A stretch of DNA of 64,000 nucleotides from Vibrio sp. YMD68 (GTDB taxonomy: Bacteria; Pseudomonadota; Gammaproteobacteria; Enterobacterales; Vibrionaceae), in the NCBI RefSeq assembly GCF_029958905.1, contig NZ_CP124614.1:930001-994000 (forward strand), given 5' to 3'. A model generated the notes under the pieces. The model was given only the letters and a program-made list of their open reading frames with translations. It made no database searches and was not told where the DNA came from. Made by a program: the position numbers and the translations under genes. Positions 1 to 19,975 of this stretch are shown piece after piece; within the stretch, counting starts at the first letter, position 1, and every line of letters begins with the position of its first letter.

Positions 1-275
1 TGCTGCACAATGAGAAGACGCTAGGCGAAGTGGTGGGGCAATTTACTGCGGATGTGACTAAAGGGGTAGTGGCTGGCGTGATCGCTCAAGGAGCTACTTG
101 GGTGTTAAGAGCGGGGTTAATTTGGGCTTTTTCCACACCACCAACAGCATTATTACTCGGATTCTTTGCAATAAGTGCATTCTACATTGGCAATAAAATA
201 TCTAATTTCGATAAGCAACATGAATACACTACCCCAATGAAGAAAGAAATTGAGAGATTAATTGATGAAGATTAG
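1..275 (+). CDS. C-terminal end of a larger protein with hydrophobic tail, possible membrane-acting toxin (partial)
   Basis: The reading frame is open from the first bases of the window to TAG at 273-275, so this is the 3' end of a gene that starts upstream. The visible 91 residues contain two hydrophobic, glycine/alanine-rich stretches (around VVAGVIAQGATWVLRAGLIW and ALLLGFFAISAFYI) and then a charged tail. Hydrophobic hairpins at the C-terminus occur in pore-forming colicins and in membrane-disrupting T6SS effectors. The next gene overlaps this stop by 11 bases and encodes a small multi-spanning membrane protein, an arrangement typical of toxin/immunity pairs. The toxin role is inferred from architecture only, because the N-terminal part is outside the window. 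Confidence 0.55.
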   Translation, partial: LHNEKTLGEVVGQFTADVTKGVVAGVIAQGATWVLRAGLIWAFSTPPTALLLGFFAISAFYIGNKISNFDKQHEYTTPMKKEIERLIDED

Positions 276-690
276 TCGCTCAAGATCCTTTGTTTTCTTA
301 TTAATTTTCGCCTCATTCTCCTTTTTATCAATCTATGATGTCATAGACATTTGGAATACCTATAAAGTATCTAGCAATAGAGTAGTCATAAGTGGAACAA
401 TCAACGATGCATCAACATTTGCTTTTGCTTGGTCAATGTTTGTTGTGTCTATATTGATGATGATCTGTTGTATCACGGGGAAAAAACTACTCTGGATACC
501 TAAAATATTTCTAATAATCCTAGGAGGGATAACAGTGTTGGCTTTCTTCTTGGGTTGGGGAGTGAATGTGGCATTAAAAGAAAAACTTTACGAGCAAGGC
601 TACATCGAATGCACATCAGAGCGAGAGCTTACGTTGAAACACTCAAGTAGAACGTATGCTTTAGACCCTAGTCTGTGCGAGGCTAAGTAA
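265..690 (+). CDS. Small multi-pass membrane protein, candidate immunity protein
   Basis: The ATG at 265 is preferred over the in-frame TTG at 262; either start lies inside the end of the upstream gene, so the two are translationally coupled. The product has 141 residues with about three membrane segments (roughly residues 8-28, 50-70 and 75-98) and a hydrophilic C-terminal tail of about 40 residues with two cysteines. I do not recognise a named family. Size, topology and tight overlap with a gene ending in a hydrophobic hairpin fit an immunity protein that guards the inner membrane, but an unrelated membrane protein is equally possible on sequence grounds. Confidence 0.6.
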   Translation: MKISRSRSFVFLLIFASFSFLSIYDVIDIWNTYKVSSNRVVISGTINDASTFAFAWSMFVVSILMMICCITGKKLLWIPKIFLIILGGITVLAFFLGWGVNVALKEKLYEQGYIECTSERELTLKHSSRTYALDPSLCEAK

Positions 691-728
691 TTACCTTACA
701 ACAGAGCCCCTTCTGCTTAACCAATTCT

Positions 729-755
729 AAGGTGTGTGCCACTGGCACACGCCTT
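729..755. repeat. Near-perfect 13-bp inverted repeat
   Basis: AAGGTGTGTGCCA at 729-741 faces TGGCACACGCCTT at 743-755. The arms pair along 13 positions with one G-T pair and almost no loop. No T-run follows, so it is not a classical terminator. It may be a bidirectional operator or a cruciform-forming element between the membrane-protein gene and the DUF3024 gene. Confidence 0.5.
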
Positions 756-856
756 CCTTCGCGCGACTCCCTCACCATGTTATCCCTGGCACTGTATCAT
801 TTGGGAATAGCAGTACAGTACAATGCGTGCCTATTTTAATAACATAGGGTTCTTAC

Positions 857-1195
857 ATGGCTTTTTCTGAATTTGAACACGCTCGGTACAGCAAGATATT
901 GAATGCCTTCATTGAAGAGCTCCGTCCACAAGCCAATATTCGACATGAATTAGATATAGAAGGCGAACTCACCAATCAAACTATCGAAATCAGAGAGAGC
1001 CTCGCTAGCTGGGACCGTTCGACAGAAAAGCAGTATAGGTCCGTCGCGAAAATAACCTACGTTCGTACACAGCAGAGCTGGCGCCTCTATTGGATGTGAG
1101 CCAGTGGCAAATGGGAGAAGTACGACGCGTTTTACCATTTAGAGCAAGCGCTAGAAGCTATAAGGAAAGACCAATATGGCTGCTTTTGGGGATAG
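857..1195 (+). pseudogene. DUF3024-family protein gene interrupted by one in-frame TGA
   Basis: The ATG at 857 opens 80 codons ending ...WRLYWM at a TGA (1097-1099). The same frame continues without another stop as ASGKWEKYD ... DQYGCFWG to TAG at 1193-1195. The full 112-codon frame matches, from memory, the small DUF3024 family of vibrios and other gamma-proteobacteria, whose members carry a 'tyrosine-tryptophan-met ... W..Y' core and end in YGCF. One base change (CGA to TGA) would explain the interruption. Function of the family is unknown. It could be a recent pseudogene, or a truncated protein could be made. The frame is otherwise well preserved, which argues for recent decay. Confidence 0.6.
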
Positions 1196-1275
1196 CATAA
1201 TCCTCTTGACCTATCTAGCTAAACTCAATCAGACAGCTCCCGCCTCCTTCCTACTTTTTGGCGAGCGATGGAAGG

Positions 1276-1593
1276 TTAGTGTTTACTTAGCCCAGAAGGG
1301 CTCTGGTCCTTACCGGTATTGACTCGTCTAGGGTAATGTTCTTCGGGAATGGTAATATTAATAAGAGACTCATCAATATTACTTAAACTAACAATCAATC
1401 TAACCTTATCAAATCCAATAACCACACTGACACAGTCAGTAGAGGTAGATAACCCATCTACTTTAAGATACACAGAGTGTTCACGCTCAAAGAGAGACCT
1501 TCCTTGTAAACGACTTAAATACAACCAAACGGTTAACTGACTCTTTCCTCGTGGATTGTTTTACTTGATAGGCAGTGTCATGTTTGAACTCAT
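1276..1593 (-). pseudogene. Small hypothetical protein gene, probably interrupted by TAA
   Basis: On the minus strand an ATG at 1593-1591 opens a short frame stopped by TAA (plus-strand TTA at 1561-1563). The frame then continues for about 95 codons to 1276 with plausible composition (PRGKSQLTVWLYLSRLQG and onward), but without an ATG; only a TTG at 1524 could restart it. This looks like one gene of about 105 codons with a CAA-to-TAA change. I do not recognise the family. Alternatively only the TTG-initiated 82-residue protein is made. Confidence 0.3.
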
Positions 1594-1940
1594 TCGATGG
1601 TGCTCAATGTGATAATCACCTAAAAAGATGAATGGGCTTATGCGAGCCCTCTTACTTGGATTGAAGTCTTCATGCCAAGCAGATATCAGCGGTGCCTAGT
1701 ATCGCTAAGTGATGTGTTAAATATCACACAGAAAGGCATCCACAGCACTTAAGTGGTATTGTTGAAGCGATGCGTTCTCTTACCGGTTGGTATTGCGATG
1801 AGATTTTGGAGACGATGAGACTTAGGGTTTAATCCTTTAATGTTTAACTTGTAACTGTAGGCTCTCTTTAGAGGTGAGACTGCGCTCGCTTATCTGAATC
1901 GTTGGATTGTTATCGTTCCCTAATTCGAAATCCATTAATC
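1594..1940. other. Intergenic stretch without a clear gene
   Basis: No convincing reading frame is seen on either strand. The stretch precedes the Gp2-A leader and carries an extra GAAATCCATTA copy at 1927-1937 that matches part of the leader loop, which may reflect duplication of that element. Confidence 0.4.
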
Positions 1941-1991
1941 AAATACAACCACCCTGCCTTATATGAAATCCATTATCGGCAGGGCCATATC
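1941..1991 (+). promoter_or_regulatory. Gp2 leader A: conserved box plus hairpin covering the ribosome-binding site
   Basis: AAATACAAC (1941-1949) is followed by a hairpin with perfect 7-bp arms, CCCTGCC (1952-1958) and GGCAGGG (1978-1984). The loop holds ATGAAATCCATT (1963-1974). The AGGG in the 3' arm is the only good Shine-Dalgarno sequence for the ATG at 1992, so folding would hide it. The AAATACAAC box and the loop recur upstream of Gp2 copies B and C, but the hairpin arms differ there, which suggests conserved structure. The loop ATG also opens a short overlapping frame beginning MKSI. Confidence 0.55.
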
Positions 1992-2639
1992 ATGCAATGC
2001 AAACACTTCTCTCTTCACACTGAATCGACATTTAAAGGTTATCCCGTTTACACAAAGAGAGGGCCATTAATCCAGCAATACCTAGAGCGCTCATTTGAGA
2101 CGGTATATTCCTCCTTACAACACTACCCAAGAACGTTTGCTATCAGAGTCGATTTACATTTACCTGATACACTAATCCAGTACAACAATCACGTTATCAA
2201 TCGATTCTTAACATCTCTTAAAGAGCAGATCGCCCACAACCGAAGACAAGCCACAAAGCGCAATCCATACGCTCACCAATCGTGTGTTCGCTATATCTGG
2301 TGTAAAGAGCAAGGTATAGGAAGTACACCGCACTACCATGTTGTACTGCTGTTTAACGCTGATGCCTTTGACACATTAGGACACCCAAAATCAACGAATG
2401 GCAACATGGCTGCTCGAATCAAAAAAGCGTGGTTAAGAGCACTGAATTATGATGCTGAAAAAGACATTCAAAATATGGGAACTCTAATCCATTTTTGTAC
2501 TAACGGAACTTACAAGCTCAATGCTCTCCATGACAATGGTGAAATCGCAGCCTTGCTGTATAGAGTCAGCTACTTGTGCAAAGCAGAGACAAAGCATTTT
2601 ACGCACCATCAACATCAATTTGGTCGCAGCAATCGCTAG
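1992..2639 (+). CDS. Gp2-family protein A (inovirus Gp2 / YagK-YfjJ C-terminal family)
   Basis: The 215-residue product carries the family signature YIWCKEQGIGSTPHYHVVLLF near residues 110-130. The W-C-K-E and H-Y-H elements sit on adjacent strands, as in Gp2/YagK/YfjJ proteins of inoviruses and P4-like elements, where a role in rolling-circle-type replication is assumed. I start at ATG 1992 rather than the upstream GTG-type start at 1902, because 1992 has an AGGG ribosome-binding site and aligns with copy C. The gene stands alone, downstream of a structured leader, with no filamentous-phage structural genes nearby. The biochemical role is therefore inferred from family membership only. Confidence 0.7.
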   Translation: MQCKHFSLHTESTFKGYPVYTKRGPLIQQYLERSFETVYSSLQHYPRTFAIRVDLHLPDTLIQYNNHVINRFLTSLKEQIAHNRRQATKRNPYAHQSCVRYIWCKEQGIGSTPHYHVVLLFNADAFDTLGHPKSTNGNMAARIKKAWLRALNYDAEKDIQNMGTLIHFCTNGTYKLNALHDNGEIAALLYRVSYLCKAETKHFTHHQHQFGRSNR

Positions 2640-2684
2640 CGTACGTCTTGTTTTCTCTCATTAGACAAAAACAAACATTAAAGT

Positions 2685-2708
2685 GAAGCCATGCTGGACA
2701 TGGGCTTC
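2685..2708 (+). terminator. Stem-loop after Gp2-A, possible weak terminator
   Basis: GAAGCCAT (2685-2692) can pair with ATGGGCTTC (2700-2708) with one bulged base, 45 bases after the Gp2-A stop. No strong T-run follows, so termination is only possible, not shown. Confidence 0.35.
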
Positions 2709-2731
2709 CTTAGTATTGGCGATATTAATTG

Positions 2732-2778
2732 AATACAACGATTGAGTTTGTTATGGCATCCATTCATAACGAGGCTTA
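2732..2778 (+). promoter_or_regulatory. Gp2 leader B
   Basis: This is nearly identical to leader C at 11372-11413: from AATACAACGATTGAG onward the 42-base core has only two mismatches. Hairpin arms GTTATG (2750-2755) and CATAAC (2765-2770) enclose GCATCCATT, and GAGG follows as ribosome-binding site for the ATG at 2779. Confidence 0.6.
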
Positions 2779-2826
2779 ATGATGACCAAACGCTATTCAA
2801 GATTCAATGACCCTACGTCCAAGTAA
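2779..2826 (+). pseudogene. Remnant of a Gp2-family gene (copy B)
   Basis: The frame MMTKRYSRFNDPTSK starts at the expected distance after leader B and resembles the first codons of Gp2-C (ATG, then similar ACC/TCC, AAA/CAA and TTCAAG positions), but it stops after 15 codons. No further Gp2-like sequence follows. It marks a former Gp2 gene whose body was lost, most simply when the alginate module or another insertion came in downstream. Confidence 0.45.
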
Positions 2827-2844
2827 GTTGGCTTATTGGACGTA
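2814..2844. repeat. Strong hairpin at the end of the Gp2-B remnant
   Basis: TACGTCCAA (2814-2822) and TTGGACGTA (2836-2844) are perfect inverted repeats. The interior adds TAAG/CTTA around a TTGG loop, giving about 13 pairs with one bulged G. There is no T-run. It may be the boundary structure of a single-strand-processed element or a bidirectional transcription stop. Confidence 0.5.
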
Positions 2845-3048
2845 ATTTGGACTTGCGCTCATATAAGTATCATCACTTAGTTGAAAATACTTTCATTAGA
2901 ATCAAGCATTACCTTACTACATCAAGTAGATATGACAAGATAGAAAGAAACTATGCCAGCATATTATCACTGACTTGTATTATGTTTTGGCTACCAATGT
3001 GAAAGATCAACAACCCCGAACCTAGAGTAATTAAAATTTTTGCTGCTT

Positions 3049-3966
3049 TTATTCATAGTTATCAAGTAATTTCTGAAGCTCAAAGCTCGTTTCGACAAGG
3101 TGTTCGACAAATTGGTTAATGACGTCATGCTTGTTTTCACGACGAAAATAGACATTGAGTGGGATATGGATGTTAAGTTGTTCAATAGGTACACAAACGA
3201 ACTTCATGCCCAAGATAAACTTGATGCATTGTGGTGCGATCGACAAGCTCAAGCCGGATGATATGGTAATGGCAAGATGCCGCATGTTCATTGGGTTTCC
3301 GATGACGTTTGGCGTGAAGCCATTGTCTCGGCAACAGCGGAGCACTTTCTCATACACTCCTAGCCACTCATTTCTATGGAACAGATGAAGTTCCTCACAT
3401 TCAAGTTCGCTAATATCAATTTGTTCATGTTCAGCCAATCGATGGTTACTGGGCAATACGGCAACCAGCCGATCAGAGTACACTTGATGAAGGGCAAAGT
3501 AGCCCGAATCTAAGTGAGGACATTCACGGCTCAAAATGACATCGACCTTGTTGTCAACCATCGCTTCGGTAAGTTCGGCGGGTGTCATCTCGTGCAATTT
3601 AAAATGCACATATTGATGTTGGCGACGAAACTCCTGAATGAGATCGGGAAGAAAAAATGCACACGCCGTTGCTAGATACCCAATCCTAATTTCTTGCTTC
3701 TCCTCATTTTCCCTCGACTTTATTAATGTTTTTACTCGTAAGTCATTAGCTAAAATGTTGAGTGCCTCTGGTAGGAGTCGTTCACCTTGGGGGGTAAGTT
3801 CAACTTGATGAGTGGTTCGGGCAAATAGTTTGGTTTGTAGCTCGTTTTCCAACTCAGAGATATGACGTGACACAGTTGGCTGTACAGTATGCAGCTCTCT
3901 CGCTGCAGCGGAAAAATTATTTAAACGTGCAACGGTGACAAACGTTGATAGGTTTTTTAACTCCAT
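3049..3966 (-). CDS. LysR-type transcriptional regulator
   Basis: This 305-residue protein has the LysR layout. Residues 1-60 form the winged helix-turn-helix (LSTFVTVARLNNFSAAARELHTVQPTVSRHI), followed by a linker helix and a periplasmic-binding-protein-like effector domain from about residue 95. It is divergent from the symporter gene, with about 175 bp between the two starts, the standard arrangement for a LysR protein controlling its neighbour. The intergenic stretch is AT-rich with an ATTGTTATACATTAAT region that could hold the binding site. The inducer is unknown; an alginate breakdown product is the natural guess from the downstream genes. Confidence 0.85.
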   Translation of the reverse strand: MELKNLSTFVTVARLNNFSAAARELHTVQPTVSRHISELENELQTKLFARTTHQVELTPQGERLLPEALNILANDLRVKTLIKSRENEEKQEIRIGYLATACAFFLPDLIQEFRRQHQYVHFKLHEMTPAELTEAMVDNKVDVILSRECPHLDSGYFALHQVYSDRLVAVLPSNHRLAEHEQIDISELECEELHLFHRNEWLGVYEKVLRCCRDNGFTPNVIGNPMNMRHLAITISSGLSLSIAPQCIKFILGMKFVCVPIEQLNIHIPLNVYFRRENKHDVINQFVEHLVETSFELQKLLDNYE

Positions 3967-4141
3967 GACGTGCTCATTTGTAATTTGTATTATTGTTATA
4001 CATTAATATCATTTCCAAAATTCTTTAAATCCGTTTAGTTTTGTTTATGGTGTAAGTCCCAAATATTACAGAAACTGCCATGAAGAGCATGTGAATGAGA
4101 TCGGCTTACGACCTATCCCTACACAAACAGGAAACAGAAAA

Positions 4142-5929
4142 ATGGACATCGATATAATCATAGTTTTAGTGTATTTCGCTTTTCTAATTGGTCTTGGCTG
4201 GGTATTTCGCTCAGCAGCTGCGAATACAAGCGAGTACTTTCGCGGGGGCGGCAAAATGCTCTGGTGGATGGTGGGATCCAGTGCGTTTATGATGGCGCTG
4301 AGTGCGATGACGTTTACGGGTCTTATGGGCAAAGCGCTAACAAGCGGTATGTCGGTCGCTGTGGTCTTCTTTGCTAATGCACTTGGCTACTTTATCAACT
4401 ACCTTTTCTTTGCTGCAAAAGCGCGACAAATGCGTGTCATCAGTCCAATCGAAGGCGTGCGTTTACGCTTAGGTCAAGTCAATGAACAAGTATTTACTTG
4501 GGCGAACGTTCCGCTCAGTGTGTTGCAAGCGGCAATTTGGCTCAATGGTCTTGCCGTATTTACCAGTGCGGTGATTGGGGTTCCACTTGAGCAAACCATC
4601 GTGGGTGCAGGTTTAGTGGTGCTTTTCATCTCTTTGGTCGGTGGCAGCTGGGCGGTGATTGCTTCGGATTTCATGCAGATGATCATCATCACAGTCATGA
4701 CGTTTATTGCTGCGCTCGTCGCGATTTGGAAATCGGGTGGTGTCGGTAACTTGTTGGAAGTGGGGCTGCCGACTCAGCAATTGATTGGTGAGGGATACAG
4801 TTACTCGTATTTATTCGTTGGTTGGTTTATCTGTATTTTCGTTAAGCAGTTTTTCAGTACCAACAACATGGTCGATTCTTACCGGTTTATTGCGTCAAAA
4901 GATACTAAAAATGCCCGAAAAGCAGCGTTGCTTGCGTGCAGTCTGATGATCATCGGCCCACTGATGTGGTTTTTACCTGCGTGGTTCGTGGCAGGGAATT
5001 ACCCAGATACAAGTGCATGGGGTCTCGAAGAGTTAGGCAATAAAGTCGCTGATGCCACTTACTACATGTTTGTTAAAAATGAAATGCCAGTGGGAATGGT
5101 GGGGTTGATGTTAGCGGCTATGTTTGCGGCCACCATGTCCTCAATGGATTCTGCTCTGAACCGTAATGCCGGCATCATCTTGAAAAGTGTCTATGAACCT
5201 TATCTTTGTAAAGAGATGACAGAGAAGAAGCTGATGAACGCGAGCCGTATTCTTACCGCGGCATTTGGCATCATTATCATCGTTGCTGCTTTGTTCCTAA
5301 CTTCATTGAAACAGTTTGGGCTATTTGACCTAATGATGCTGGTCGGAACGTTGGTTGGCTTCCCGGTTTTGATTCCATCTATCTTGTGCTTTTTCATCCG
5401 TAAAACGCCAGACTGGGCTGGGTGGGGCACGATTGTTGTGGGTATGTTCGTATCAGCGGTGATAGCGTTTGTCATCACACCAGAGATGATCCAGAGCCTA
5501 CTTGGCCTTGACGAGCCACTTTCGTCACGTGAATTTGCCGAAATGAAATCCGTTACCCTCGGGGTGATCGGGCATATGACGATTACACTGCCTTTCTTCG
5601 TCTTATCGCAACTCTTCTACAAGGGCCACTCTGCAAAACGCGAGTCAGAGGTAAACCAGTTCTTTACTAACATCGATACAGAAGTGGTAGTAGAGGAAAA
5701 TGCAACCAGTATTGCGATGGATAACAAGCAACGCGATATGCTAGGAAAAATGCTCCTTATTGCTGCTGTATTCCTGTCTTTGTTGGTACTGATTCCTAAC
5801 CCAATGTGGGGACGAATGCTGTTCGTTTTGGTTGCGCTCATCATCGGTGGTATTGGTGCGCTACTCCTGCATGCGGCAAAACGAGCTGGACGCCCAGTCT
5901 CACAATCTTCAGCAACTAATCACGTTTAA
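4142..5929 (+). CDS. Sodium:solute symporter (SSS family)
   Basis: The product has 595 residues with about 13-14 hydrophobic segments. The N-terminal DIIIVLVYFAFLIGLGWVFR, the following SEYFRGGG and the GSWAVIASDFMQMIII region are typical of the SSS family. Before the last helices there is a hydrophilic loop at about residues 510-545. ATG 4142 is chosen because AGGAAA precedes it by a normal distance; the in-frame GTG at 4091 lacks a site. SSS transporters next to alginate lyases in vibrios take up unsaturated uronates or oligoalginate, so that substrate is inferred from context. It is the first gene of a rightward run of four. Confidence 0.85.
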   Translation: MDIDIIIVLVYFAFLIGLGWVFRSAAANTSEYFRGGGKMLWWMVGSSAFMMALSAMTFTGLMGKALTSGMSVAVVFFANALGYFINYLFFAAKARQMRVISPIEGVRLRLGQVNEQVFTWANVPLSVLQAAIWLNGLAVFTSAVIGVPLEQTIVGAGLVVLFISLVGGSWAVIASDFMQMIIITVMTFIAALVAIWKSGGVGNLLEVGLPTQQLIGEGYSYSYLFVGWFICIFVKQFFSTNNMVDSYRFIASKDTKNARKAALLACSLMIIGPLMWFLPAWFVAGNYPDTSAWGLEELGNKVADATYYMFVKNEMPVGMVGLMLAAMFAATMSSMDSALNRNAGIILKSVYEPYLCKEMTEKKLMNASRILTAAFGIIIIVAALFLTSLKQFGLFDLMMLVGTLVGFPVLIPSILCFFIRKTPDWAGWGTIVVGMFVSAVIAFVITPEMIQSLLGLDEPLSSREFAEMKSVTLGVIGHMTITLPFFVLSQLFYKGHSAKRESEVNQFFTNIDTEVVVEENATSIAMDNKQRDMLGKMLLIAAVFLSLLVLIPNPMWGRMLFVLVALIIGGIGALLLHAAKRAGRPVSQSSATNHV

Positions 5930-5965
5930 TAAAAAGGGCTGGGTAAACCAGCCCAAGGATTCTAC

Positions 5966-6514
5966 ATGTCTGTACAACAAAAATTTGGTGGCGAACTCTC
6001 TGATGAAGAGTTTCGCAAGTTCACGTTATACACCTCTCAAAGTAATAACAAACATGATGATGAGGCGAGAGCAAAAATATTGGGCTTTACCAGCAGCAAT
6101 GTCCGCGTTGCGCCTGGAGCGATCATTCGCATTGGAGAGAACCAAATTGGCGCGCGCAGTTATGTTGGCCTTTACAGCTACATCAATGGAGATGTCGTGA
6201 TTCAAGAGGATGTATCGATTGGCCCTCACGTTTCCATTGTAGGTGGTAATCATGTCTTTGAGCCGGAGACTCAGTGCTTTAGTGGCCGCAGTAGTTGGCA
6301 AGAAGGGAAAGTCATTATCGAGCGAGGTGTTTGGTTGACAACGGGTGTTGTTATCACTCCGGGCACAACCGTAGGGGCATGCTCACTGGTTTGCGCTAAC
6401 TCTGTTGTGACTGGTGATATCGCTCCATATTCGATTGTGGCAGGGGCACCAGCTAAGCAAATTGGTACGATTGATCCAAAGTCGGGTCAATACCATTGGT
6501 TCAACAAGGAGTAG
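5966..6514 (+). CDS. Hexapeptide-repeat (left-handed beta-helix) acyltransferase
   Basis: This 182-residue protein has isoleucine/valine-patterned hexapeptide repeats from about residue 45 to 165 (for example ARSYVGLYSYINGDVVIQED). It ends with the family hallmark VVTGDIAPYSIVAGAPAKQIG, and a glycine-asparagine-histidine (GNH) turn near residue 93 fits the catalytic histidine of xenobiotic/maltose-type acetyltransferases. It starts 36 bases after the symporter stop and 7 bases before the lyase gene, so all are probably one operon. Its substrate is unknown. An O-acetyltransferase acting on sugars or uronates in an alginate pathway is unusual enough to note. Confidence 0.75.
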   Translation: MSVQQKFGGELSDEEFRKFTLYTSQSNNKHDDEARAKILGFTSSNVRVAPGAIIRIGENQIGARSYVGLYSYINGDVVIQEDVSIGPHVSIVGGNHVFEPETQCFSGRSSWQEGKVIIERGVWLTTGVVITPGTTVGACSLVCANSVVTGDIAPYSIVAGAPAKQIGTIDPKSGQYHWFNKE

Positions 6515-6521
6515 TGGTTCA

Positions 6522-8747
6522 ATGTTGTCTTTGTCTCGTAAGCACGATTTTCAATTATTTACCGCGCCAACGGAGCAATCTGCGGTGGTGAATCCCCCAA
6601 GTTTTAATTGGCCACAAACCCGATACGAAGGGGTGTACCACCTTGAACTTGAGTCACTAACTTCACAGAAGTCTTGGAGCTGGAGCGATGTGCAGTCTCC
6701 TTTGCAACTGGATTTCGCTCTAGCTAGCGGACAATATCGCTGGCGAGTGCGTTGTGTGGAAAGCCATGAGTCCTCGGATTGGATCCATTTCTCTATTGAT
6801 GAACATACGGAGGTGTACCTCGCGCCAACAGCGGCAGAGCTTTTCGAAGCATGTCGAGATAATGATCAGTTCTTGCTCTACTTCGATGCGGATATTGCTA
6901 CGGTGAACACCGCTTCACACGGCATTGAAGAGAAACTTCGCGCCAGCGTCACCGATTTGGATATTGAGTCAATTCAATACCCAAACCATTATCGACGAGG
7001 TCTTGAAGAAGGTAAGCGCACAGCGATTGCCAATGTTAGGAACTGGATCGATCGTGACTTAATGGCGCTAACGTTACTCTACCGAATTTGGGGAGATGAC
7101 AAATCTGGAAAGAGAGCGTGTCAAATACTGTTAAGATTGGCTGAGTGGAGTCCGGAAGGACCTGCGTCGCTCCTACGTCCTTGTACTTGGGGGGACGAGG
7201 TCGGTCTTTCATTATCTCGTAACCTCTACCTTGCTTATCACTGGTTGTCGCCTTTATTAAAAGAAGAAGAGCGAGGCTTTGTCCGCCCTTTACTGGTCAG
7301 GCTTGCATTTCAAATGGAAGAACGCTTAGAGCAAGACCAGTTTAAGCAGTTTCCGGGGCATTCTCATACCTCTCGACTGCCCGCATACTTGGGTATTGCT
7401 GCATTATGTCTGCACAAAGAGTTTGATCTTAAGACGTGCGAGCGTTGGCTCAGTTATGCATTGATGATCTATCGAGGGGTATTGCCTTTCTATGGCGGCA
7501 AGGATGGCAGTTGGGTAGAGGGCCCCTTTTACTCCTCTTCCTATACAAAGTGGCACCACCCATTTTTCCTTGCGGTTGAACGGTTGAGTGGTTTCTCTTT
7601 CTATCATCACCCGTTTTACAAAAATCACGTCAACTTCGCGATGGACTTTGTTGCCACTCAAGAACGTATTCACCCATTTGGTGATGGCTTTTGGTGCCAA
7701 CGTGATGGCAAAGAGTGGCCTGGATTCTTTGCTCAAAATCCGTTGCGTATTTACGCGCAACGCTTTGGGGATCATCGTGCGCAAGCGCGCTCTCGAGACC
7801 TCGAGTCTGAGATTGATGTTTATCAACTTCATTTACTGGATATTGTACCAACGTTACCTCAACTGGATTATCAGACGGCAAGTCAGAAAGGCAAAGTAAG
7901 CGCAATACCGAGCATTCCTCAGCATGTTTACTACACCTATGCGGGGCTAGGTAAAATCACTCATGACAGCACGTCACTTTACTATCGTGCTAGCCAATTT
8001 GGTAACAGCTCTCATCGACATGCCGATCAGGGAAACTTTGCGTATGTCGACCAAGGGCAAAATATCTTAACGCCAAGTGGTAGCTATGGTTACCGCTTTG
8101 GTAGCCAACATCACAGCCAATGGACTCGAACAACGCAAGCACATAACTTGCCGCTAATCGATGGAGTAGGACAAAAGCTCGATTGTCCATCGGGTGTCGC
8201 TCATCTTGTTGGTCACCGAGCGGTAGATGGTTTTGACATTGTCGTATTGGATTTAGCGGACGCTTATGTGGATTGTGAGCGCTACTATCGAACGTTTGTT
8301 TTCGTTAAGCAGTTGGGACTCATTGTCTTTGACCAAATACATCTTGAGACAGCTAAACCACTCCAATGGCGGTTACATACTCCTTGTGACGTCGCATTCA
8401 ACCCATCAGGCGTAACACTTGCTCTTGAGCAGCAAAGTTACCAAGTCAATGTCACTGGTCATCAATTACAGGCACCTGAACTAGTTGACGAAATTAATGA
8501 TGAAGATGTGTTTTGCACAAGTGTCGAATCCGACGCACAAAAAGATATACGACATATTGAATGGAGAATTGCTGCGCATAAACAACATAGAATTCTAATG
8601 CAATGCAGCCAGTCCAACGCGCTGCAATGTGCTTTGAAAGAAGATGAATGGATTGTTGAAGCTGAAGGCCAACGACTGATATTACCGAGCCTCAAAAGCG
8701 TGTCACCCAATGAATACTTAAACAACCTGGCTACAACGAACGGCTAG
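6522..8747 (+). CDS. Heparinase II/III-fold oligoalginate lyase, PL15-like
   Basis: The product has 741 residues. It begins with a DUF4962-type N-terminal domain (NPPSFNWP near residues 25-32), followed by an (alpha/alpha) toroid. That toroid contains GHSHTSRLP near residue 278 and EGPFYSSSYTKWHHPFF near 332, positions corresponding to the catalytic His and Tyr of PL15 exo-lyases such as Agrobacterium Atu3025. A C-terminal heparinase II/III beta-sandwich follows (SHRHADQGNF near 497). No signal peptide is seen, so it acts inside the cell on imported oligosaccharides, releasing unsaturated monomers. ATG 6522 has GGAG upstream; longer in-frame starts would overlap the acyltransferase. PL17 or another PL family cannot be fully excluded. 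Confidence 0.7.
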   Translation: MLSLSRKHDFQLFTAPTEQSAVVNPPSFNWPQTRYEGVYHLELESLTSQKSWSWSDVQSPLQLDFALASGQYRWRVRCVESHESSDWIHFSIDEHTEVYLAPTAAELFEACRDNDQFLLYFDADIATVNTASHGIEEKLRASVTDLDIESIQYPNHYRRGLEEGKRTAIANVRNWIDRDLMALTLLYRIWGDDKSGKRACQILLRLAEWSPEGPASLLRPCTWGDEVGLSLSRNLYLAYHWLSPLLKEEERGFVRPLLVRLAFQMEERLEQDQFKQFPGHSHTSRLPAYLGIAALCLHKEFDLKTCERWLSYALMIYRGVLPFYGGKDGSWVEGPFYSSSYTKWHHPFFLAVERLSGFSFYHHPFYKNHVNFAMDFVATQERIHPFGDGFWCQRDGKEWPGFFAQNPLRIYAQRFGDHRAQARSRDLESEIDVYQLHLLDIVPTLPQLDYQTASQKGKVSAIPSIPQHVYYTYAGLGKITHDSTSLYYRASQFGNSSHRHADQGNFAYVDQGQNILTPSGSYGYRFGSQHHSQWTRTTQAHNLPLIDGVGQKLDCPSGVAHLVGHRAVDGFDIVVLDLADAYVDCERYYRTFVFVKQLGLIVFDQIHLETAKPLQWRLHTPCDVAFNPSGVTLALEQQSYQVNVTGHQLQAPELVDEINDEDVFCTSVESDAQKDIRHIEWRIAAHKQHRILMQCSQSNALQCALKEDEWIVEAEGQRLILPSLKSVSPNEYLNNLATTNG

Positions 8748-8776
8748 TTTCTGAAAACAACAAAAGAGAAAAATAG

Positions 8777-9766
8777 ATGAATAATTACTCTAAAACCCTA
8801 TTGGCCCTTACCATTGCCGCGATGTCATCCAGTGCTGCTGCACAACTGGATCCAGCGAAATCACCATCGGAAAACTTTGATCTTTCAATGTGGAAAATCG
8901 TGATACCAATGGAAGACACAAAACCAGAGCGTCAAGGTAAGGTAATGGAATTATCTAAAGCTGAAGTGAATCAAGGCTACCAACACCCGCAATGGTTTTA
9001 TACCGACAAAAAGAGTGGTGCAATGGTCTTTGCTGCGCCAAACAAAGCGATGACAACGCCGAATTCGAGCAACGCGCGCTCTGAGCTGCATGCGTTAATC
9101 TCGGATAAGCATGATATTGGCCCTTACGAACCTGAAAACAACTTTGTACTCGCCTCACATCCCAAAGCAAGTGAGTTTGGAGCGATAGGTGGCAAAATGA
9201 GTGCAACGCTCGCTGTGGACCATGTGAGTCTAAGTGGTGACCATCGCCACAATGATTCGTTTTCCGTTGTGATTGGCCAAATTCATGCGGGCACTAACGA
9301 GCCACTAAAAATCTTCTATCGTAAGCTGCCTGATCAAGAATATGGTTCGGTGTATTGGAATTATGAGAACAATGCCTTGGGTGAAGATTACCACCGACGC
9401 CTAGACATTTCTCACAACGTTTTTGGTCAAGCCAAGCTGCGTTTTGGTCAACCTGAACCAACGGATGGCATCAAGCTAGGAGAGAAGTTCTCGTACGATG
9501 TTCAAGTGGATGGCGATGTGATGTATCTCGAATTTACTAAGAATTTAGAGAGTGAAGCGCCTATCTCTCGTCATTTTGCTATTGACTTAGCGAAGGGGCA
9601 ATATCTAGGCAACAAGTATGATGCGGGCTATAAAAATGAGTGGTTCTTTTTCAAAGCGGGCGCATACAACCAGTGCAACACAGGAGTTGTACGCTGTACA
9701 AACAACGGCATAGAGGCAGGAGACTATACTCAAGCGAGCTTCTATAAGCTGGAAATCAAACACTAG
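8777..9766 (+). CDS. Secreted alginate lyase, PL7 family
   Basis: This 329-residue protein has a cleavable signal peptide (about residues 1-22, ending SSSAAA). It carries the three PL7 motifs: RSELHAL at 101-107, GQIH at 167-170 and FFKAGAYNQ at 291-299, which line the catalytic groove. The isoleucine in QIH is associated in the family with activity on G-containing blocks, while QVH tends to prefer poly-M. There is no carbohydrate-binding module, only the single catalytic jellyroll. It starts 29 bases after the oligoalginate lyase gene. Together they give extracellular depolymerisation, uptake and intracellular exo-cleavage. Confidence 0.92.
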   Translation: MNNYSKTLLALTIAAMSSSAAAQLDPAKSPSENFDLSMWKIVIPMEDTKPERQGKVMELSKAEVNQGYQHPQWFYTDKKSGAMVFAAPNKAMTTPNSSNARSELHALISDKHDIGPYEPENNFVLASHPKASEFGAIGGKMSATLAVDHVSLSGDHRHNDSFSVVIGQIHAGTNEPLKIFYRKLPDQEYGSVYWNYENNALGEDYHRRLDISHNVFGQAKLRFGQPEPTDGIKLGEKFSYDVQVDGDVMYLEFTKNLESEAPISRHFAIDLAKGQYLGNKYDAGYKNEWFFFKAGAYNQCNTGVVRCTNNGIEAGDYTQASFYKLEIKH

Positions 9767-9981
9767 ACCTGGTGTGTTATGTGTTACTACTAATCAAAGT
9801 CCGCGTTACAAACATTGTATTTAACTTAGTGGAGCTGTCTTTGCGATTAACAATATAGAGAGCTTTTGATATTTTTACCGCCCTAGGCTGACTTGGTTTA
9901 GGGCACTTATCTAAAAAGTAGCTCCTGTAAATAATTCTGTGTAACTGCTCTCGGAAGCATCCATAATAGCCAGTATTTAAC
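9767..9981. other. Intergenic stretch with possible IS256-type end
   Basis: No gene is seen. GTAAATAATTCTGTGTAACT near 9927-9946 resembles, in reverse complement, the terminal sequence of IS256-family elements (ACACAGAATTATTTACA). It marks where the decayed insertion-sequence zone begins. GCCCTA (9880-9885) and TAGGGC (9899-9904) form a short inverted repeat after the lyase gene. Confidence 0.35.
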
Positions 9982-10260
9982 CTAAGATCGATTTAAGCAG
10001 TAAGCGATTAAGCCTCCTAGTAAGTTCAGTATGAACCCGTGTAAGCTACGATGAATTTGAAATATGTTCTTTAGTTGGTCATTTATCGTCTCGATAATGA
10101 GCCGCTTCGACAGCATCGCTCGATCCCAAGCTGCTGTGGCTTTTGGCTTCATATTTTTTCGATGCGTTGTTATTAGTGTAATCCCATCTTCCTTCAAATC
10201 TTCAGTGAGCACTTTACTGATATAGCCTTTGTCAGCTAAAGCTTGTTGAATAGCCCCTTT
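9982..10260 (-). pseudogene. IS982-family transposase, C-terminal remnant
   Basis: The minus-strand frame contains DKGYISKVLTEDLKEDGITL, then RKNMKPKATAAWDRAMLSKR and IIETINDQLKNIFQI, then a family-typical HRSLHGFILNLLGGLIAYCLN ending. These are the last third of an IS982 transposase, including the final acidic residue region. The N-terminal two thirds are absent, a few residues are missing before HRS, and the upstream side runs into IS21 sequence. It is a dead fragment. Confidence 0.75.
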
Positions 10261-10386
10261 GATAATTCACGAACAGGCTTCCTATCATCAGTATTTATAT
10301 GAGCGAATAGAGGCTGCTGCTCCTCAATGGATTCCAGCGAGTGTCTTGTTTTTAGAGGCTCAAGAAAGGGGATATGAAGGAGGGAT

Positions 10387-10952
<566 letters not shown>

Positions 10953-10974
10953 TACACTAAGGTAGATCAGTTTT

Positions 10975-11024
10975 TAATGATCGAAAATTCGAAAAGATGG
11001 ATCACTTTTAAATGATCGTTGACA
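10975..11024 (+). mobile_element. Right terminus of the decayed IS21-family element
   Basis: TTTTTAATGATCGAAAA is followed by GGATCACTTTTAAATGATCG and TTGACA at 11019-11024. This repeats a GATCA...TTTTAAATGATCG motif as in the multiple transposase-binding repeats of IS21 ends, which close with TGACA. It lies directly after the istB remnant. Confidence 0.55.
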
Positions 11025-11370
11025 GGTTGCGAGAATGCGGTGTGGTTTGGTTATGCGTTTATGGATAATGCTGTTGGCTCTATGGTGGATAATTAGGGCT
11101 GTTGTGCCTTGTGGAGCCATAGCGCGATGATTGTGTACAACTTAATGAATTGACAATTACATGAGCTCTATGGACCGTTAGGTACATTGAGAAGGAGGGT
11201 GGTAACTAGACGGATACCAGGGTTAATCGTATACGAATAATTTTCAACGCAGTCGTCTTAGTCGGTCTCGAAAAAATAATAACATCCGTGCTTTGATTCA
11301 CGGCCTTTTGCACTGAGATATCAACAACATCAAGGCTTTGCCACCTTGTGGTAGGTATTAAATACTGACC
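11025..11370. other. Intergenic stretch without a gene
   Basis: I see no supported reading frame, repeat or RNA gene between the IS21 end and the Gp2-C leader. Confidence 0.4.
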
Positions 11371-11421
11371 AAATACAACGATTGAGTTTGTTATGAAATC
11401 CATTCATAACGAGATTCAATC
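11371..11421 (+). promoter_or_regulatory. Gp2 leader C
   Basis: AAATACAAC (11371-11379) is followed by arms GTTATG (11390-11395) and CATAAC (11405-11410) around AAATCCATT, then GAG as ribosome-binding site and ATG at 11422. It matches leader B almost base for base, and matches leader A in the AAATACAAC box and the ATGAAATCCATT loop. An overlapping short frame MKSIHNEIQSC starts at 11393. Confidence 0.6.
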
Positions 11422-12006
11422 ATGTCCCAACACTCTTCAAGCCATCGCTATAATCTCAATCACATTCAAGACATCGAAAGCGTGCTGAGCCAAGCTTTAA
11501 ACCTATTTAAACGGGTGAGCGTGTTTCGGTTTGATGTGCATTACCCTAATTTTCATCCCGATGACCCGACCTCTTATCGTACACAGGAGTTTACTAAAAA
11601 ATTCCTAGGCTCACTCACCTCTAAGTCAGAGCACATGACCGGTCAGAAGGCGACGTTCTATTACCTTTGGTGCAAAGAGCACAACATTGAGAAAGGCCCC
11701 CCCCTGCCACACTACCACTTTGCATTGATTCTTAATGGTAATCAATTTCAAAGCTGGGGCCGTTATGATTACCAAGGGCCTTGTTTACGAATATGCATTG
11801 AACAAGCATGCTTAAGTGCGATGGGATTACCTTCAGAATATGAGCCTAGCGCCCTGCAATACGGTGGTATCAAAACCATCTGCACGTATGCAGGCAAAGA
11901 TTATCAAGCGCAATGGAATGAAGCGGTAAGGATGCTCAGCTACTTAGCCAAGAGAGAGGGCAAGATACCAGGACAACGCTGCTGGGGTAAAAGCGCTTTG
12001 TACTAA
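11422..12006 (+). CDS. Gp2-family protein C (inovirus Gp2 / YagK-YfjJ type)
   Basis: This 194-residue protein has FYYLWCKEHNIEKGPPLPHYHFALILN near residues 73-100, the same W-C-K-E and H-Y-H core as copy A, followed by a helical region ending in a CWGKSALY tail. It carries an F-R-F-D-V-H-Y strand near residue 35 that corresponds to the IRVDLH strand in copy A. Downstream lies RNase H and then copy D, all on the same strand. A DNA-processing or replication role is assumed from the family. The H-Y-H motif is intact, so the protein may be active. Confidence 0.7.
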   Translation: MSQHSSSHRYNLNHIQDIESVLSQALNLFKRVSVFRFDVHYPNFHPDDPTSYRTQEFTKKFLGSLTSKSEHMTGQKATFYYLWCKEHNIEKGPPLPHYHFALILNGNQFQSWGRYDYQGPCLRICIEQACLSAMGLPSEYEPSALQYGGIKTICTYAGKDYQAQWNEAVRMLSYLAKREGKIPGQRCWGKSALY

Positions 12007-12116
12007 GCGTTGTAACCTAACCATCCATTGACATCATTTTCAATACACATGCTGAGAAATTTCACTGCGCTCCATGTGTGTCTCATCTTAATCCAAACTT
12101 AAAGGAAATCATTATC

Positions 12117-12575
12117 ATGTCTTATACAAACACGATTACTCCATGCGCCATCTACGTTGACGGCGCTGCGCCCAATAATCAACACGGCTGCCTAAAAGGT
12201 GGGATTGGCATAGCGATTTACAACTCAGAGCAGCAATTGATTCATACCGACTCGACGACCATCAATAGACCTACTGATAACGCTGAATTAGAGCTTATCG
12301 CGCTGGTGGAAGGGTTAGAATTCGCTAATGATGGCGATACGGTCTATTCAGACAATGAGTATTGCGTAAAGGGTTACAATGAATGGCTGGACGGTTGGAA
12401 AGCCAAAGGCTGGCGTAAAGCCAATAATAAACCCATTGCCAATCGTGAGCTTTGGCAATTAGTGGATTCACTGCGTTCAATGAAATTTGTGCATGTCGTT
12501 AAAGTAAAAGCTCATGCGGGCATTGAAGGGAATGAAAAGGCCGACAAACTGGCGACACAAGCCGCAATACGCTGA
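12117..12575 (+). CDS. Ribonuclease HI-type protein
   Basis: The product has 152 residues. All four carboxylates of the RNase H active site are visible: D in IYVDGAA (near 14), E in DNAELELIAL (near 61), D in VYSDNEY (near 83) and the last D in EKADKLA (near 145), plus the loop histidine in KVKAHAG. ATG 12117 is used because AAGGAA lies just upstream; an in-frame ATG at 12078 has no site. It cleaves RNA in RNA:DNA hybrids. Between two Gp2-family genes it may remove replication primers or R-loops of the element rather than act as the housekeeping rnhA. Confidence 0.88.
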   Translation: MSYTNTITPCAIYVDGAAPNNQHGCLKGGIGIAIYNSEQQLIHTDSTTINRPTDNAELELIALVEGLEFANDGDTVYSDNEYCVKGYNEWLDGWKAKGWRKANNKPIANRELWQLVDSLRSMKFVHVVKVKAHAGIEGNEKADKLATQAAIR

Positions 12576-12607
12576 TATTTACCCCGCTCACAGAGCCTTA
12601 AAAATTA

Positions 12608-12635
12608 GACAAGGAGAGCCCCCCACGTCCTTGTC
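12608..12635 (+). repeat. Stem-loop between RNase H gene and Gp2-D
   Basis: GACAAGGA (12608-12615) pairs perfectly with TCCTTGTC (12628-12635) around a 12-base C-rich loop. It may attenuate transcription or stabilise the upstream message; no T-run is present. Confidence 0.45.
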
Positions 12636-12707
12636 TATCAACCGACACCATTATCGAACAAACAAGCCCACGTTTATGTTTACCACGCAACATGGAGCCT
12701 ATCTAAC

Positions 12708-13224
12708 ATGAGCCGATATCTTTACCCTACACCAGCCAACCTTCATCAAACACCGGACACCAAACACACCTTGTTGAATATTCAATCGGCACTCACCGAT
12801 GCCATGGGACGTTACCAGCAACTGGTTATCCTACCCGTTTCGTTAATCGTACCGGCAGGGCTTAACATCTACTGCAATGAAGACACCGGAGAGTCTCACC
12901 TACATCACTTAATGACTTCATTACAACAGCGCATTAACGATTCTGTTGACGGGTATCATGAAAAAGGACAAATCGCTGGCGTGTGGGAGGCCAATATCAC
13001 CACCAGGCCTGTCAGGTACAAGTTATGCTTACTTCTCAATCAGACCTGGATGCAATCTCATCCAGACAGCTATTCTTGTTTCAGAGCACGCATTCAAGAC
13101 AGCTGGCGGTCGACATTAGGCCTGTTACCTTCTCACGACAGCTACCCTGCCTCCAGCCTTGTATCCACACTCAAAGCCGAAGCGGTATCGATTAATCAAC
13201 GACAAGGGTTTCTACTGGTACAGA
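12708..13224 (+). pseudogene. Gp2-family gene D, 5' part, split by the prophage
   Basis: The frame aligns by eye with Gp2-C (LNIQSALTDAMGRYQQLVIL for the N-terminal helix and strand, then GVWEAN ... VRYKLCLLLN where C has LWCKEH ... HYHFALILN). The H-Y-H residues are replaced, so this copy was divergent before it was split. Its natural frame runs to 13224, where the prophage begins. The frame continues artificially into phage DNA to a stop at 13253. The true C-terminus is at 44879-44994. Joined, the gene has 210 codons. Confidence 0.75.
13220..13224. repeat. Target-site duplication, left copy (ACAGA)
   Basis: ACAGA directly precedes the prophage left end and is repeated at 44874-44878 directly after the right end. 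Five-base duplications are the hallmark of Mu-type transposition. Confidence 0.93.
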
Positions 13225-13343
13225 TGTGGGGTGACATTTATTATGAAAAATAAGAGAGGTATGAAAATTTAGGCTCAGACTAGAGTGGGTAAGGCTTAGA
13301 ACGGTTTAACAGTAGTTACTAATAGAACATTTAATTCTGGAAA
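13225..13343. repeat. Left-end transposase-binding sites (L1, L2)
   Basis: L1 ACATTTATTATGAAAA begins at 13234 and L2 ACATTTAATTCTGGAAA spans 13327-13343. Both fit the consensus ACAYTTA(N)TTNTGNRAA shared with three sites at the right end, in the outward-to-inward orientation expected of Mu-type ends. Confidence 0.7.
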
Positions 13344-13516
13344 TTTTTCCTTAAATTCAAAAATAATTTATCACTAAAAGCACCAAAATGATCTACTTTT
13401 CTCGCAATTAATTACTTCTTAAATCCCCATTTATCGATCGTTAAATCTGAATTTAATGTGGCTGGAGGGCGCTGAATTCCTCATCGTATTTCGCTGCTGC
13501 TAGGACAGGATAATAA

Positions 13517-13534
13517 GTTGGACAGCTTTCCAAC
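13517..13534 (-). terminator. Stem-loop after the MuF gene
   Basis: GTTGGA (13517-13522) and TCCAAC (13529-13534) form a perfect stem. Read on the minus strand it lies 20 bases after the MuF stop and is followed by TTATTAT. It probably ends the leftward phage operon. No gene lies between it and the prophage left end. Confidence 0.5.
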
Positions 13535-13553
13535 AATGTCAGCCACAACATGA

Positions 13554-14780
13554 TTATAAACTACCCTCAATCACTTCGTAAACTGATGAGTCCTGTAAAC
13601 TTAGTTTCGAGACAACACTTCCAGATACGACCCCGTTTCCCTTAAAGCCCGTCTTACTCTGATAATTGATATCCACTATCAGCTTTCCGTATTTATTCTT
13701 TTGACCTTCTAGTTTAATCACGTAAACCAAAGTTGTTCTTCCTTTTTGGACTTGGCGTTTATCCAGCAATATCGCAACGGCATTGTCTAGTGCTCCGGGA
13801 ATGTCTTGCAAGACTTCTTTAGGTAGGTCAATCGACTTGGCTCTCTTGAGCTCTCGACTCATTCGCTTTAAGCGCCAGTCATCAATAAAAATCGTGGCAG
13901 ACTTTGACTGTACTTTCTCAAACGCAGAGACACTCAATAACCCAACACTGGTGGCCTTACCGCGAGCTGTGCCATCAATGACTGGCGTCGACCAGGTGTT
14001 AAAGTACTTTGAAAGCTGGCTAATATACGCTTTATTTTGGGATAGAACCTCTTTGCGATACACCTCTGGCATTGACGCAATGTACTCACCGAGTGAATTA
14101 TCTGGCCCCAACCACACCTTACCTACATTATAGTCCCAACCAACACCAACACCTTCAGCAACTTCCCCATATAATTCCCCTGTACGAGTATTGATTCGCT
14201 CGCTAGTTTTTATTTCTGGAGAGTGGCTGATGGTTAGATTTTCACGGTTGATATCATCTTCGGACTTACTCAATACGTAGCACCGACATCCAAAGTCATT
14301 GGGAGGCATGTATGTATCCCAAAACGGATCATCAATGGGCAGTGTCAAATATCGCCATTTATCGTGTTCATCACGAACCCTATCATCACCGACAGTCATA
14401 TAAGTTAGATAAGGGCGATTTTTCTTCTGGCGCTCGAACTGTTGCCAGCGCCCAGCGCTATACGCACTATTTAAATTATTATTAAAAATCACCTTGGTGC
14501 GCCAGCCACGCTTTCCGTTATAAGTCCAACCATGAGACAGCACAGTTTCATCAAAAGCTTTTCTAAAATCAGTGATGGTTTTTCCCTGGCTCAGCGCCTC
14601 ATTCAATGCATCATGAAGGTCCTTTAATAAACTCATTTTTGTGGCTCCAGCAACTGCGAAGCCCCTTGCTCGAGGCGCACCCAACATGTCATCCCAATGT
14701 CGGGTAGGAATATTGAGTTTCTTGAGCATTACCTCAGTAGCTTCAACATGAGGCACACTCGCCACGTTAACGTCCGACAT
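13554..14780 (-). CDS. MuF-type head morphogenesis protein with C-terminal nuclease-like domain
   Basis: The product has 408 residues. The N-terminal half has the SPP1 gp7/Mu gpF core: NLNSAYSAGRWQQFE near 110-124, then a RPYLTYMTVGDDRVRDEHD and PPNDFGCRCYV motif with conserved cysteines. This minor head protein travels in the capsid. From about residue 290 the chain continues into a separate alpha+beta domain (KVQSKSATIFIDDWRLKRM ... PGALDNAVAILLDK ... TLVYVIKLEG) resembling the MuF C-terminal / barnase-EndoU-RelE-like nuclease group. Such fusions are the phage MuF polymorphic toxins. ATG 14780 is preferred to GTG 14783. It overlaps the portal gene end by 14 bases. No immunity gene is visible downstream. 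Confidence 0.75.
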   Translation of the reverse strand: MSDVNVASVPHVEATEVMLKKLNIPTRHWDDMLGAPRARGFAVAGATKMSLLKDLHDALNEALSQGKTITDFRKAFDETVLSHGWTYNGKRGWRTKVIFNNNLNSAYSAGRWQQFERQKKNRPYLTYMTVGDDRVRDEHDKWRYLTLPIDDPFWDTYMPPNDFGCRCYVLSKSEDDINRENLTISHSPEIKTSERINTRTGELYGEVAEGVGVGWDYNVGKVWLGPDNSLGEYIASMPEVYRKEVLSQNKAYISQLSKYFNTWSTPVIDGTARGKATSVGLLSVSAFEKVQSKSATIFIDDWRLKRMSRELKRAKSIDLPKEVLQDIPGALDNAVAILLDKRQVQKGRTTLVYVIKLEGQKNKYGKLIVDINYQSKTGFKGNGVVSGSVVSKLSLQDSSVYEVIEGSL

Positions 14781-19390: not shown

Positions 19391-19399
19391 GAGAGTCCC

Positions 19400-19903: not shown

Positions 19904-19975
19904 TAAAACCTCGTTCATGCTTGTTTTAATGACTATTTTGGAGAGATTAAAGAGGGAATTCAGTACCCAACTAAT

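Follow-up and report, generated by a model that had tools for sequence, protein, structure and literature searches.

In this article, I will discuss a locus of Vibrio sp. YMD68 at which four genes or gene remnants of the Gp2 family (PF11726), here called A to D, are grouped around a dedicated ribonuclease H (RNase H) gene, and the place of this Gp2/RNase H module among genomic islands. The window, by which is meant the whole stretch of 64,000 nucleotides that was analysed (C2:930001-994000, in a genome of 4.85 Mb on three contigs), was the subject of an earlier note made from the sequence alone, which suggested either an undescribed mobile element or a domesticated, possibly defensive, system. 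Coordinates without a prefix are those of the window, L007 is the window copy with its flanks, L005 is a second copy in the same genome and L057 is the copy of Vibrio qingdaonensis. From left to right, the module and the DNA that interrupts it are as follows:

1952..1984, plus strand: leader hairpin of Gp2 A (CCCTGCC/GGCAGGG), whose end is 7 nt upstream of ATG 1992
1992..2639, plus strand: Gp2 A, PF11726, with complete HUH and Y..K motifs
2732..2826, plus strand: Gp2 B remnant, a leader hairpin (2750-2770) and a 15-codon open reading frame (ORF; 2779-2826)
2827..11371: alginate-use genes (Pfam) and apparent transposon fragments, missing from the second copy
11387..11413, plus strand: leader hairpin of Gp2 C, from the hairpin search
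11422..12006, plus strand: Gp2 C, PF11726, with complete HUH and Y..K motifs
12117..12575, plus strand: dedicated RNase H, PF00075 and NF006433, with five active-site residues
12708..13224, plus strand: native part of Gp2 D, HUH lost; the ORF continues to 13253 in the prophage
13225..44873: Mu-like prophage in Gp2 D, with a 5-bp target duplication
44874..44991, plus strand: displaced 3' part of Gp2 D and right flank of the module, 98.3% identical to C2:3057855-3057972

Gp2 A, whose ORF spans 1902-2639 but whose start is likely ATG 1992 rather than 1902, matches PF11726 with E=2.7e-46 and 158 bits, and Gp2 C, from a divergent branch of the family, does so with E=3.3e-16 and 60.1 bits, both above the Pfam cut-off of 25.8. 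As the earlier note had read, the two proteins keep the W-C-K-E and HYH cores, to which SYLCK in A and SYLAK in C can be added; HYH and Y..K are what I take to be the catalytic motifs of HUH endonucleases, and A and C each carry the histidine pair and the tyrosine with lysine of that class. PF23343 (ORF2-G2P) matches Gp2 A below its own cut-off, and the two matches among solved structures searched with a Gp2 profile (E 0.037 and 0.25) are not meaningful. For Gp2 C, the ratio of nonsynonymous to synonymous divergence (dN/dS) is 0.11 against V. qingdaonensis. Gp2 B had been called a remnant and is one, consisting of a 70-bp leader (2732-2801), 86% identical to that of Gp2 C (11372-11441), and 15 codons read by eye, with the rest of the gene gone. 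The RNase H matches PF00075 (E=7.7e-30, 104.3 bits) and NF006433 (223.8 bits), is 99% identical to its counterpart in V. qingdaonensis and, as had been noted, possesses the complete active site of the RNase HI family, D10/E48/D70/H124/D134 (DEDHD). Gp2 D has no Pfam family match, PF11726 included; its description as a divergent Gp2 is nevertheless borne out by a hidden Markov model (HMM) built from 65 Gp2 proteins with D excluded, which scores it at 30-31 bits, and by hhalign against the Gp2 profile (probability 80%, E=1.4e-5). RYK stands in place of its HYH, the Y..K motif is absent, and the structure model is weak (pLDDT 67). Relatives of D are rare: a search of about 5.8 billion database sequences gave 3 protein clusters at E<=0.001, and 3 of 118 genomes of the genus, this one among the 3, have hits; dN and dS between the two own copies of D are both 0.038, indicating no constraint, and dN/dS is 0.22-0.29 against V. 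qingdaonensis. No integrase, coat or pI (Zot) family was found among the locus ORFs scanned with Pfam and PHROGs (several small ORFs lay outside the scan), in agreement with the earlier note, and Rfam gave nothing at the gathering threshold in the window and nothing at E<=0.1 in 1700-2850.

The pairing of Gp2 with RNase H recurs throughout the genus. In the 118 genomes (own included), 34 dedicated RNase H genes, counted at at least 100 bits against the window RNase H, occur in 23 genomes; two fragments below 100 bits (in G080 and G023) stand outside the 34, and among the matches listed the remaining RNase H, mostly the host's own RNase HI, score no higher than 72.2 bits. PF11726 genes lie within 8 kb of 33 of these 34, the nearest always upstream, and for 32 of the 34 every PF11726 neighbour is on the same strand as the RNase H. 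Uniform placement would put 0.43 RNase H genes near a Gp2, and the chance neighbourhood that the earlier note named as its own refutation is ruled out; the survey it proposed yields both the recurrent RNase H and the tandem paralogues it anticipated, with at least three Gp2 matches upstream of the RNase H in 12 loci. At the level of whole genomes, 0 of 118 have the RNase H without Gp2, 24 have Gp2 without the RNase H and 71 have neither (Fisher p=9e-12, relatedness of genomes uncorrected). Across the order, in counts taken from listings by reading, PF11726 is found in 88 of 375 genomes, and G236 is the one genome beyond the genus with an RNase H of at least 100 bits, separated by 3 kb from the Gp2 gene upstream of it; a class-wide NF006433 search found 1 of 369 genomes over the cut-off, namely this one. 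Among 41 named loci, 33 have a Gp2 in their flank of 6 kb; these loci overlap with the genomes surveyed (e.g., in V. pacinii, V. furnissii and V. neptunius), and the two sets are therefore not independent.

What is new, as predicted from the residues, is a division into live and dead enzymes that follows the type of locus, with one complete Gp2 accompanied by catalytically empty paralogues and an RNase H that is intact in one setting and empty in the other. The first Gp2 is complete in all 11 loci with three full-length Gp2 genes (triads), and the second and third are complete in none: the tyrosine of the second is arginine in every case, and the third has a broken HUH pair, serine or arginine for tyrosine and glutamate for lysine in all 11. 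Other loci with one full-length Gp2 have it complete in 20 of 22 cases (own and V. qingdaonensis counted apart). In a FastTree phylogeny the second and third triad genes each form their own groups and the first genes fall into several, and dN/dS is 0.13-0.26 for the second and 0.07-0.26 for the third gene (pairs yielding a value, six loci). The RNase H could be judged in 32 of the 34 proteins, which were complete enough, and DEDHD is intact in 10 of 10 judged triads; at loci with a single full-length Gp2, one or more of the four acidic residues are missing from 14 of 16 RNase H, of which 12 have lost D10, D70, H124 and D134 and kept E48, and the two intact ones belong to the own second copy and V. 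qingdaonensis. The inactive forms make up one group, with L073 (DDTHN) as an intermediate, and their dN/dS of 0.06-0.21 (17 of 18 pairs yielding a value) shows that selection maintains them. Exceptions to the split are Aliivibrio, with an intact RNase H and Gp2 far upstream, and L056, L058 and L074. NF006433 also covers non-catalytic relatives, at 178.6 and 244.6 bits, and the proteins at L060:7177-7614 and L061:8419-8952 pass as ribonuclease H over its cut-off yet lack most catalytic residues. The name is therefore likely an annotation error across the single-Gp2 islands, in Vibrio proteins that an NCBI model calls ribonuclease H and that are without catalytic residues yet are maintained by selection.

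Furthermore, the surroundings of the module are those of islands. The 43 mapped loci (11-32 kb each, selected for holding Gp2, RNase H or D, with ORFs by a simple longest-ORF rule, clustering by single linkage and broken genes in L053, L054, L055 and L071) contain two recurring units, a Gp2 triad with RNase H or a single Gp2 with RNase H, in islands with AlpA and often integrase, RadC and DUF2787. Triad loci often run integrase, divergent gene, three Gp2, AlpA, RNase H and cargo, some with a regulator, two DUF2787 genes and RadC on the opposite strand; single-Gp2 loci often run integrase, AlpA, divergent gene and Gp2, then an opposite-strand regulator/DUF2787/RadC block around which RNase H and AlpA are placed, with cargo after. 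The regulator is presumably of the WYL type, a name for which NCBIfam gave nothing. A tyrosine integrase is present in 20 of 43 mapped loci and RadC in 23 of 43, and a scan for tRNA and tmRNA genes was positive in 11 of 29 loci (tRNA-Ser, tRNA-Val or tmRNA) and in 2 of another 14 (tRNA-Trp or tmRNA); it gave none at the triad loci L043-L052 and L053. The module is also found in Marinomonas, Psychromonas and Pseudoalteromonas, and the islands move between genera, as seen from stretches of Marinomonas spartinae and Pseudoalteromonas luteoviolacea that match those of Vibrio, the former having 5.1 kb in common with V. cincinnatiensis at 93.7% and the latter 3.5 kb with V. intestinalis at 90.9%.

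Taken as a whole, the locus is probably best explained as a partly decayed Gp2/RNase H module of integrative genomic islands that are spread through Vibrio and other marine Gammaproteobacteria, and its two parts, the island module and the relic state of the window copy, can be held with considerable confidence. A weak point is the group of eight named loci without a Gp2 in the flank (L117-L119, L126, L138, L143, L147 and L151), two of which, L126 and L151, have little upstream sequence. In three Aliivibrio loci the Gp2 lies 6-8 kb upstream of the RNase H, if the contigs are rightly matched by coordinates. The RNase H of V. hangzhouensis (L143) is 45% identical and PF11726 is absent from its genome; this relative (L143:5965-6450) has an intact active site and adjoins an integrase-like ORF.

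As to what the module may do, the leaders of the Gp2 genes are considered first. With the start codon allowed to float within the first 45 codons, in Gp2 genes and controls equally, a permissive search finds some hairpin near the start in 65 of 65 full-length Gp2 genes, and a score of at least 17 is reached by 69% of Gp2 against 14.6% of 507 other genes, or by 17 of 27 against 63 of 433 after de-duplication. The arms vary in sequence between leaders and the pairing is kept. An AT-rich motif (TAAAAATAACG-like), picked after inspection of the leaders, occurs in 13 of 27 Gp2 leaders and 25 of 433 controls, and most triad genes have a hairpin upstream, the catalytically empty ones included; any hairpin near the start of E. 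coli yfjJ is weak. With at most 3 mismatches the core hairpin occurs twice in the window, where 100 shuffles predict 0 occurrences, and 3 times genome-wide, including a site with 2 mismatches. The idea of dispersed REP-like hairpins moved by Gp2 was rejected, as the leader core is found only at B, C and one 2-mismatch site in the own genome.

A role in replication or DNA processing is slightly favoured over any other. Gp2 A (also C here, and the first triad gene elsewhere) would be an HUH endonuclease recognising single-stranded hairpins like those of the Gp2 leaders, and its nick would start rolling-circle-type replication or processing of the excised island. The leader hairpin, often overlapping the ribosome-binding site, would at the same time limit the synthesis of Gp2 itself, and the catalytically empty paralogues (D here, the second and third triad genes elsewhere) may keep hairpin binding and compete or partner with the live enzyme, setting its dose. 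By clearing RNA (primers or an RNA:DNA hybrid) around the hairpin, RNase H would make nicking or copying possible there, and in most single-Gp2 islands the non-catalytic RNase H fold may retain the binding part only. The hairpin and RNA details of this mechanism are tentative. One could speculate, with as much doubt, about a replication switch made from one live HUH nickase, two dead Gp2 and a live RNase H, or from a single Gp2 and a dead RNase H, in which competition at the Gp2 leaders, for paired hairpins and for RNA:DNA hybrids, sets initiation; I know of no satellite, plasmid or filamentous phage with such replication control. A live nickase with dead partners and an RNase H in live and dead versions would provide a genetic handle on replication start and dose control.

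The same hairpins also suit a purely post-transcriptional regulator, in which Gp2 binds the leader hairpin of its own mRNA and shuts off translation, giving an autoregulated island switch whose RNA is tuned by RNase H and its inactive relatives, with no need for DNA nicking. In 24 of 27 Gp2 leaders the 3' arm of the hairpin overlaps or borders a Shine-Dalgarno-like sequence, compared with 51 of 130 controls scoring at least 15 (a loose pattern, on sets filtered differently), hairpins precede the empty triad genes too, and both these paralogues and the empty RNase H fold would suit a binding role. However, HUH and Y..K are kept in 11 of 11 first triad genes and 20 of 22 singles, and a pure RNA binder would not need them; I consider this explanation rather unlikely.

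Returning to the module in its islands, the state of the window copy is read from a second copy in the same genome (C2:3051527-3057972), with which window -2102..257, 600..2681, 11864..13224 and 44874..44991 are collinear at 96-98% identity. Because of this collinearity two blocks are extra in the window, the alginate-use DNA between B and C and the prophage in D; the second copy lacks 2827..11371, and V. qingdaonensis lacks this DNA as far as 11070. In the second copy the front half of Gp2 C is gone, and Gp2 D is longer (221 aa). In the window D is also cut by the Mu-like prophage, with the junction at 13224/13225, prophage DNA as the last codons of the ORF and a 5-bp duplication (ACAGA at 13220-13224 and 44874-44878) bracketing the insertion. 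The earlier note lacked the alginate-use cluster (about 3.0-9.8 kb) and the extension of the module to the left of the window with AlpA (L007:15932-16351, PF05930 E=1.3e-22), a DUF2787-type gene that clusters with DUF2787 proteins and has no Pfam match of its own, and a PAAR protein gene. About 125 bp at the left end are common to both own copies and V. qingdaonensis, to which the own two are 96% and 74% identical; this end begins at TGGCGGAG in all three, with unrelated DNA before it, and its reverse complement, ending in CTCCGCCA after GGTTCG or GGTTTA, may resemble the 3' end of a tRNA-Ser gene, which is a lead only. Direct repeats of at least 11 bases between the left and right ends were found in none of four comparisons. 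The window copy has the AlpA and Gp2 of the CP4-57 and I55-type islands; it is called a relic rather than a member of the integrase/AlpA/Gp2/RadC islands because no tyrosine integrase was found in it or in the second copy (among ORFs scanned, by clustering with island integrases). The maps of the own copies (32 kb and 22 kb) likewise show no RadC, and no DUF3987 primase was found among the ORFs scanned with Pfam at the window locus. With B lost and the rest broken by the alginate-use cluster and the prophage, what remains flanks a PAAR gene.

This last position invites the view of a locally domesticated helper, surviving because it mobilises or duplicates a PAAR effector/immunity pair between the type VI secretion loci of this strain. 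The window copy stands before VipA, VipB, gp25-like, TssF and TssG genes (Pfam, right of the prophage) and the second copy beside Hcp, a VgrG-type cluster is near the module in 5 of 43 mapped loci, and Gp2 A is identical in protein between the own copies (window 1902-2639 and L005:15599-16336; dN 0, dS 0.006), against 96.6% identity for the 2.1-kb block that contains it, which suggests recent homogenisation or strong constraint. Yet no triad locus has the VgrG-type cluster, and in the V. qingdaonensis copy the DUF2787-type gene and DUF3024 have no PAAR gene between them; I consider the helper improbable, at about the level of the regulator.

The island class to which the module belongs is already known. 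CP4-57 of E. coli (intA-yfjH-alpA-yfjI-yfjJ-abpBA-rnlAB) agrees in the order of its integrase, AlpA, Gp2-family and defence genes, its yfjJ being the name-giver of PF11726; it differs in having one Gp2, no RNase H (as read to 2,770,000, the island ending at 2,777,971) and the DUF3987 gene yfjI. I55-type islands of Pseudomonas, transduced by a jumbo phage and with VPI-1 named as a relative, contain a tyrosine integrase, AlpA, RadC, an inovirus Gp2-like protein and defence systems, but the main text of the report mentions neither RNase H nor ribonuclease, and no description of tandem Gp2 was found there (PMC12595487). The PICMI satellites of Vibrionaceae likewise have an integrase and AlpA in Vibrio hosts, with replication consistent with a rolling circle; they differ from the window module in that their replication gene is a DUF3987-type primase, and Gp2 goes unmentioned in the text (PMC10803314). 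One study places PF11726 with inovirus and microvirus replication proteins (PMC7000223); unlike inoviruses, the window locus has neither a coat nor a pI gene among its scanned ORFs. Of 50,697 phage records, a single one (OR844780) has a match to Gp2 A at E<=1e-5, and it looks like an island or host contig, with transposase-like and other ORFs. A phage or plasmid module was rejected: among 546 phage records and 46 plasmid records the window RNase H has relatives below 60% identity only, and an IMG/VR scan with it gave two relatives at 30% identity.

The earlier suggestion of an undescribed mobile element or defensive system can accordingly be divided: the island module stands, and no published account of the Gp2/RNase H module or pairing, or of islands combining AlpA, ribonuclease H and RadC, was found in a search largely without subscription papers, but the island class itself is not new, and defence by Gp2 and RNase H found no support. 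That the two proteins act against invading DNA, with the island as a defence element, is very improbable: PADLOC does find two restriction-modification methylases and one MkoC-like protein (Mokosh) among eight related-island proteins (with three other candidate/GTPase models and nothing for two), and CP4-57 has abpBA and rnlAB near yfjJ, but none of the five module proteins (A, C, D, RNase H and one inactive RNase H) has a hit at E<=0.01, and Gp2 and RNase H stay constant while the genes around them vary, which fits a backbone role. Marine islands of this class, then, carry defence genes and adjoin secretion effectors, and for the role of Gp2 in them no account was found.

The remaining features around and between the parts of the module, with the alginate-use cluster (3049-9766) sitting between two copies of a Gp2 leader, are as follows:

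1..275, plus strand: 3' end of the gene for a PAAR-domain (type VI secretion) protein, cargo, 390 aa, beginning left of the window (L007:17104-18276)
L005:12739-13908: PAAR homologue in the second copy (PF05488 E=1.4e-12)
262..690, plus strand: ORF for a small membrane-type protein by the PAAR gene (DUF1240 match sub-threshold only), a candidate immunity gene
857..1099, plus strand: DUF3024 gene, 80 aa against 112 aa in the second copy (L005:14541-14879, PF11225 E=8.4e-30)
3049-3966, minus strand: LysR (Pfam)
4091-5929, plus strand: SSF symporter (Pfam)
5966-6514, plus strand: hexapeptide protein (Pfam)
6414-8747, plus strand: heparinase II/III-like protein (Pfam)
8777-9766, plus strand: alginate lyase (Pfam)

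Sequences at about 10-11 kb look like transposon fragments. The Mu-like prophage (13225-44873) looks complete, with ends TGT..GACATTTATT, a portal gene by PHROGs at 14767-16263 (minus strand) and, on the minus strand too, what I take to be MuA-like (24162-25808) and MuB-like (23059-24066) genes. In V. qingdaonensis an IS110-type transposase (L057:10981-12066) starts at the 3' end of D, near the site of the prophage in the window. A type VI secretion cluster (45462-61010, of which the Pfam scan reached 50682) lies directly right of the module, and four single-Gp2 islands (L058, L059, L068 and L080) are found beside VgrG-type type VI auxiliary genes, L058 also with Hcp and PAAR. Finally, the genome has a third Gp2 in a CP4-57-like island (L008:8595-14634) made up of integrase, AlpA, DUF3987, Gp2 and a DUF2787-type gene, and the gene pair beside this island, presumably sthA-like and TetR-like, also flanks several Gp2/RNase H islands.

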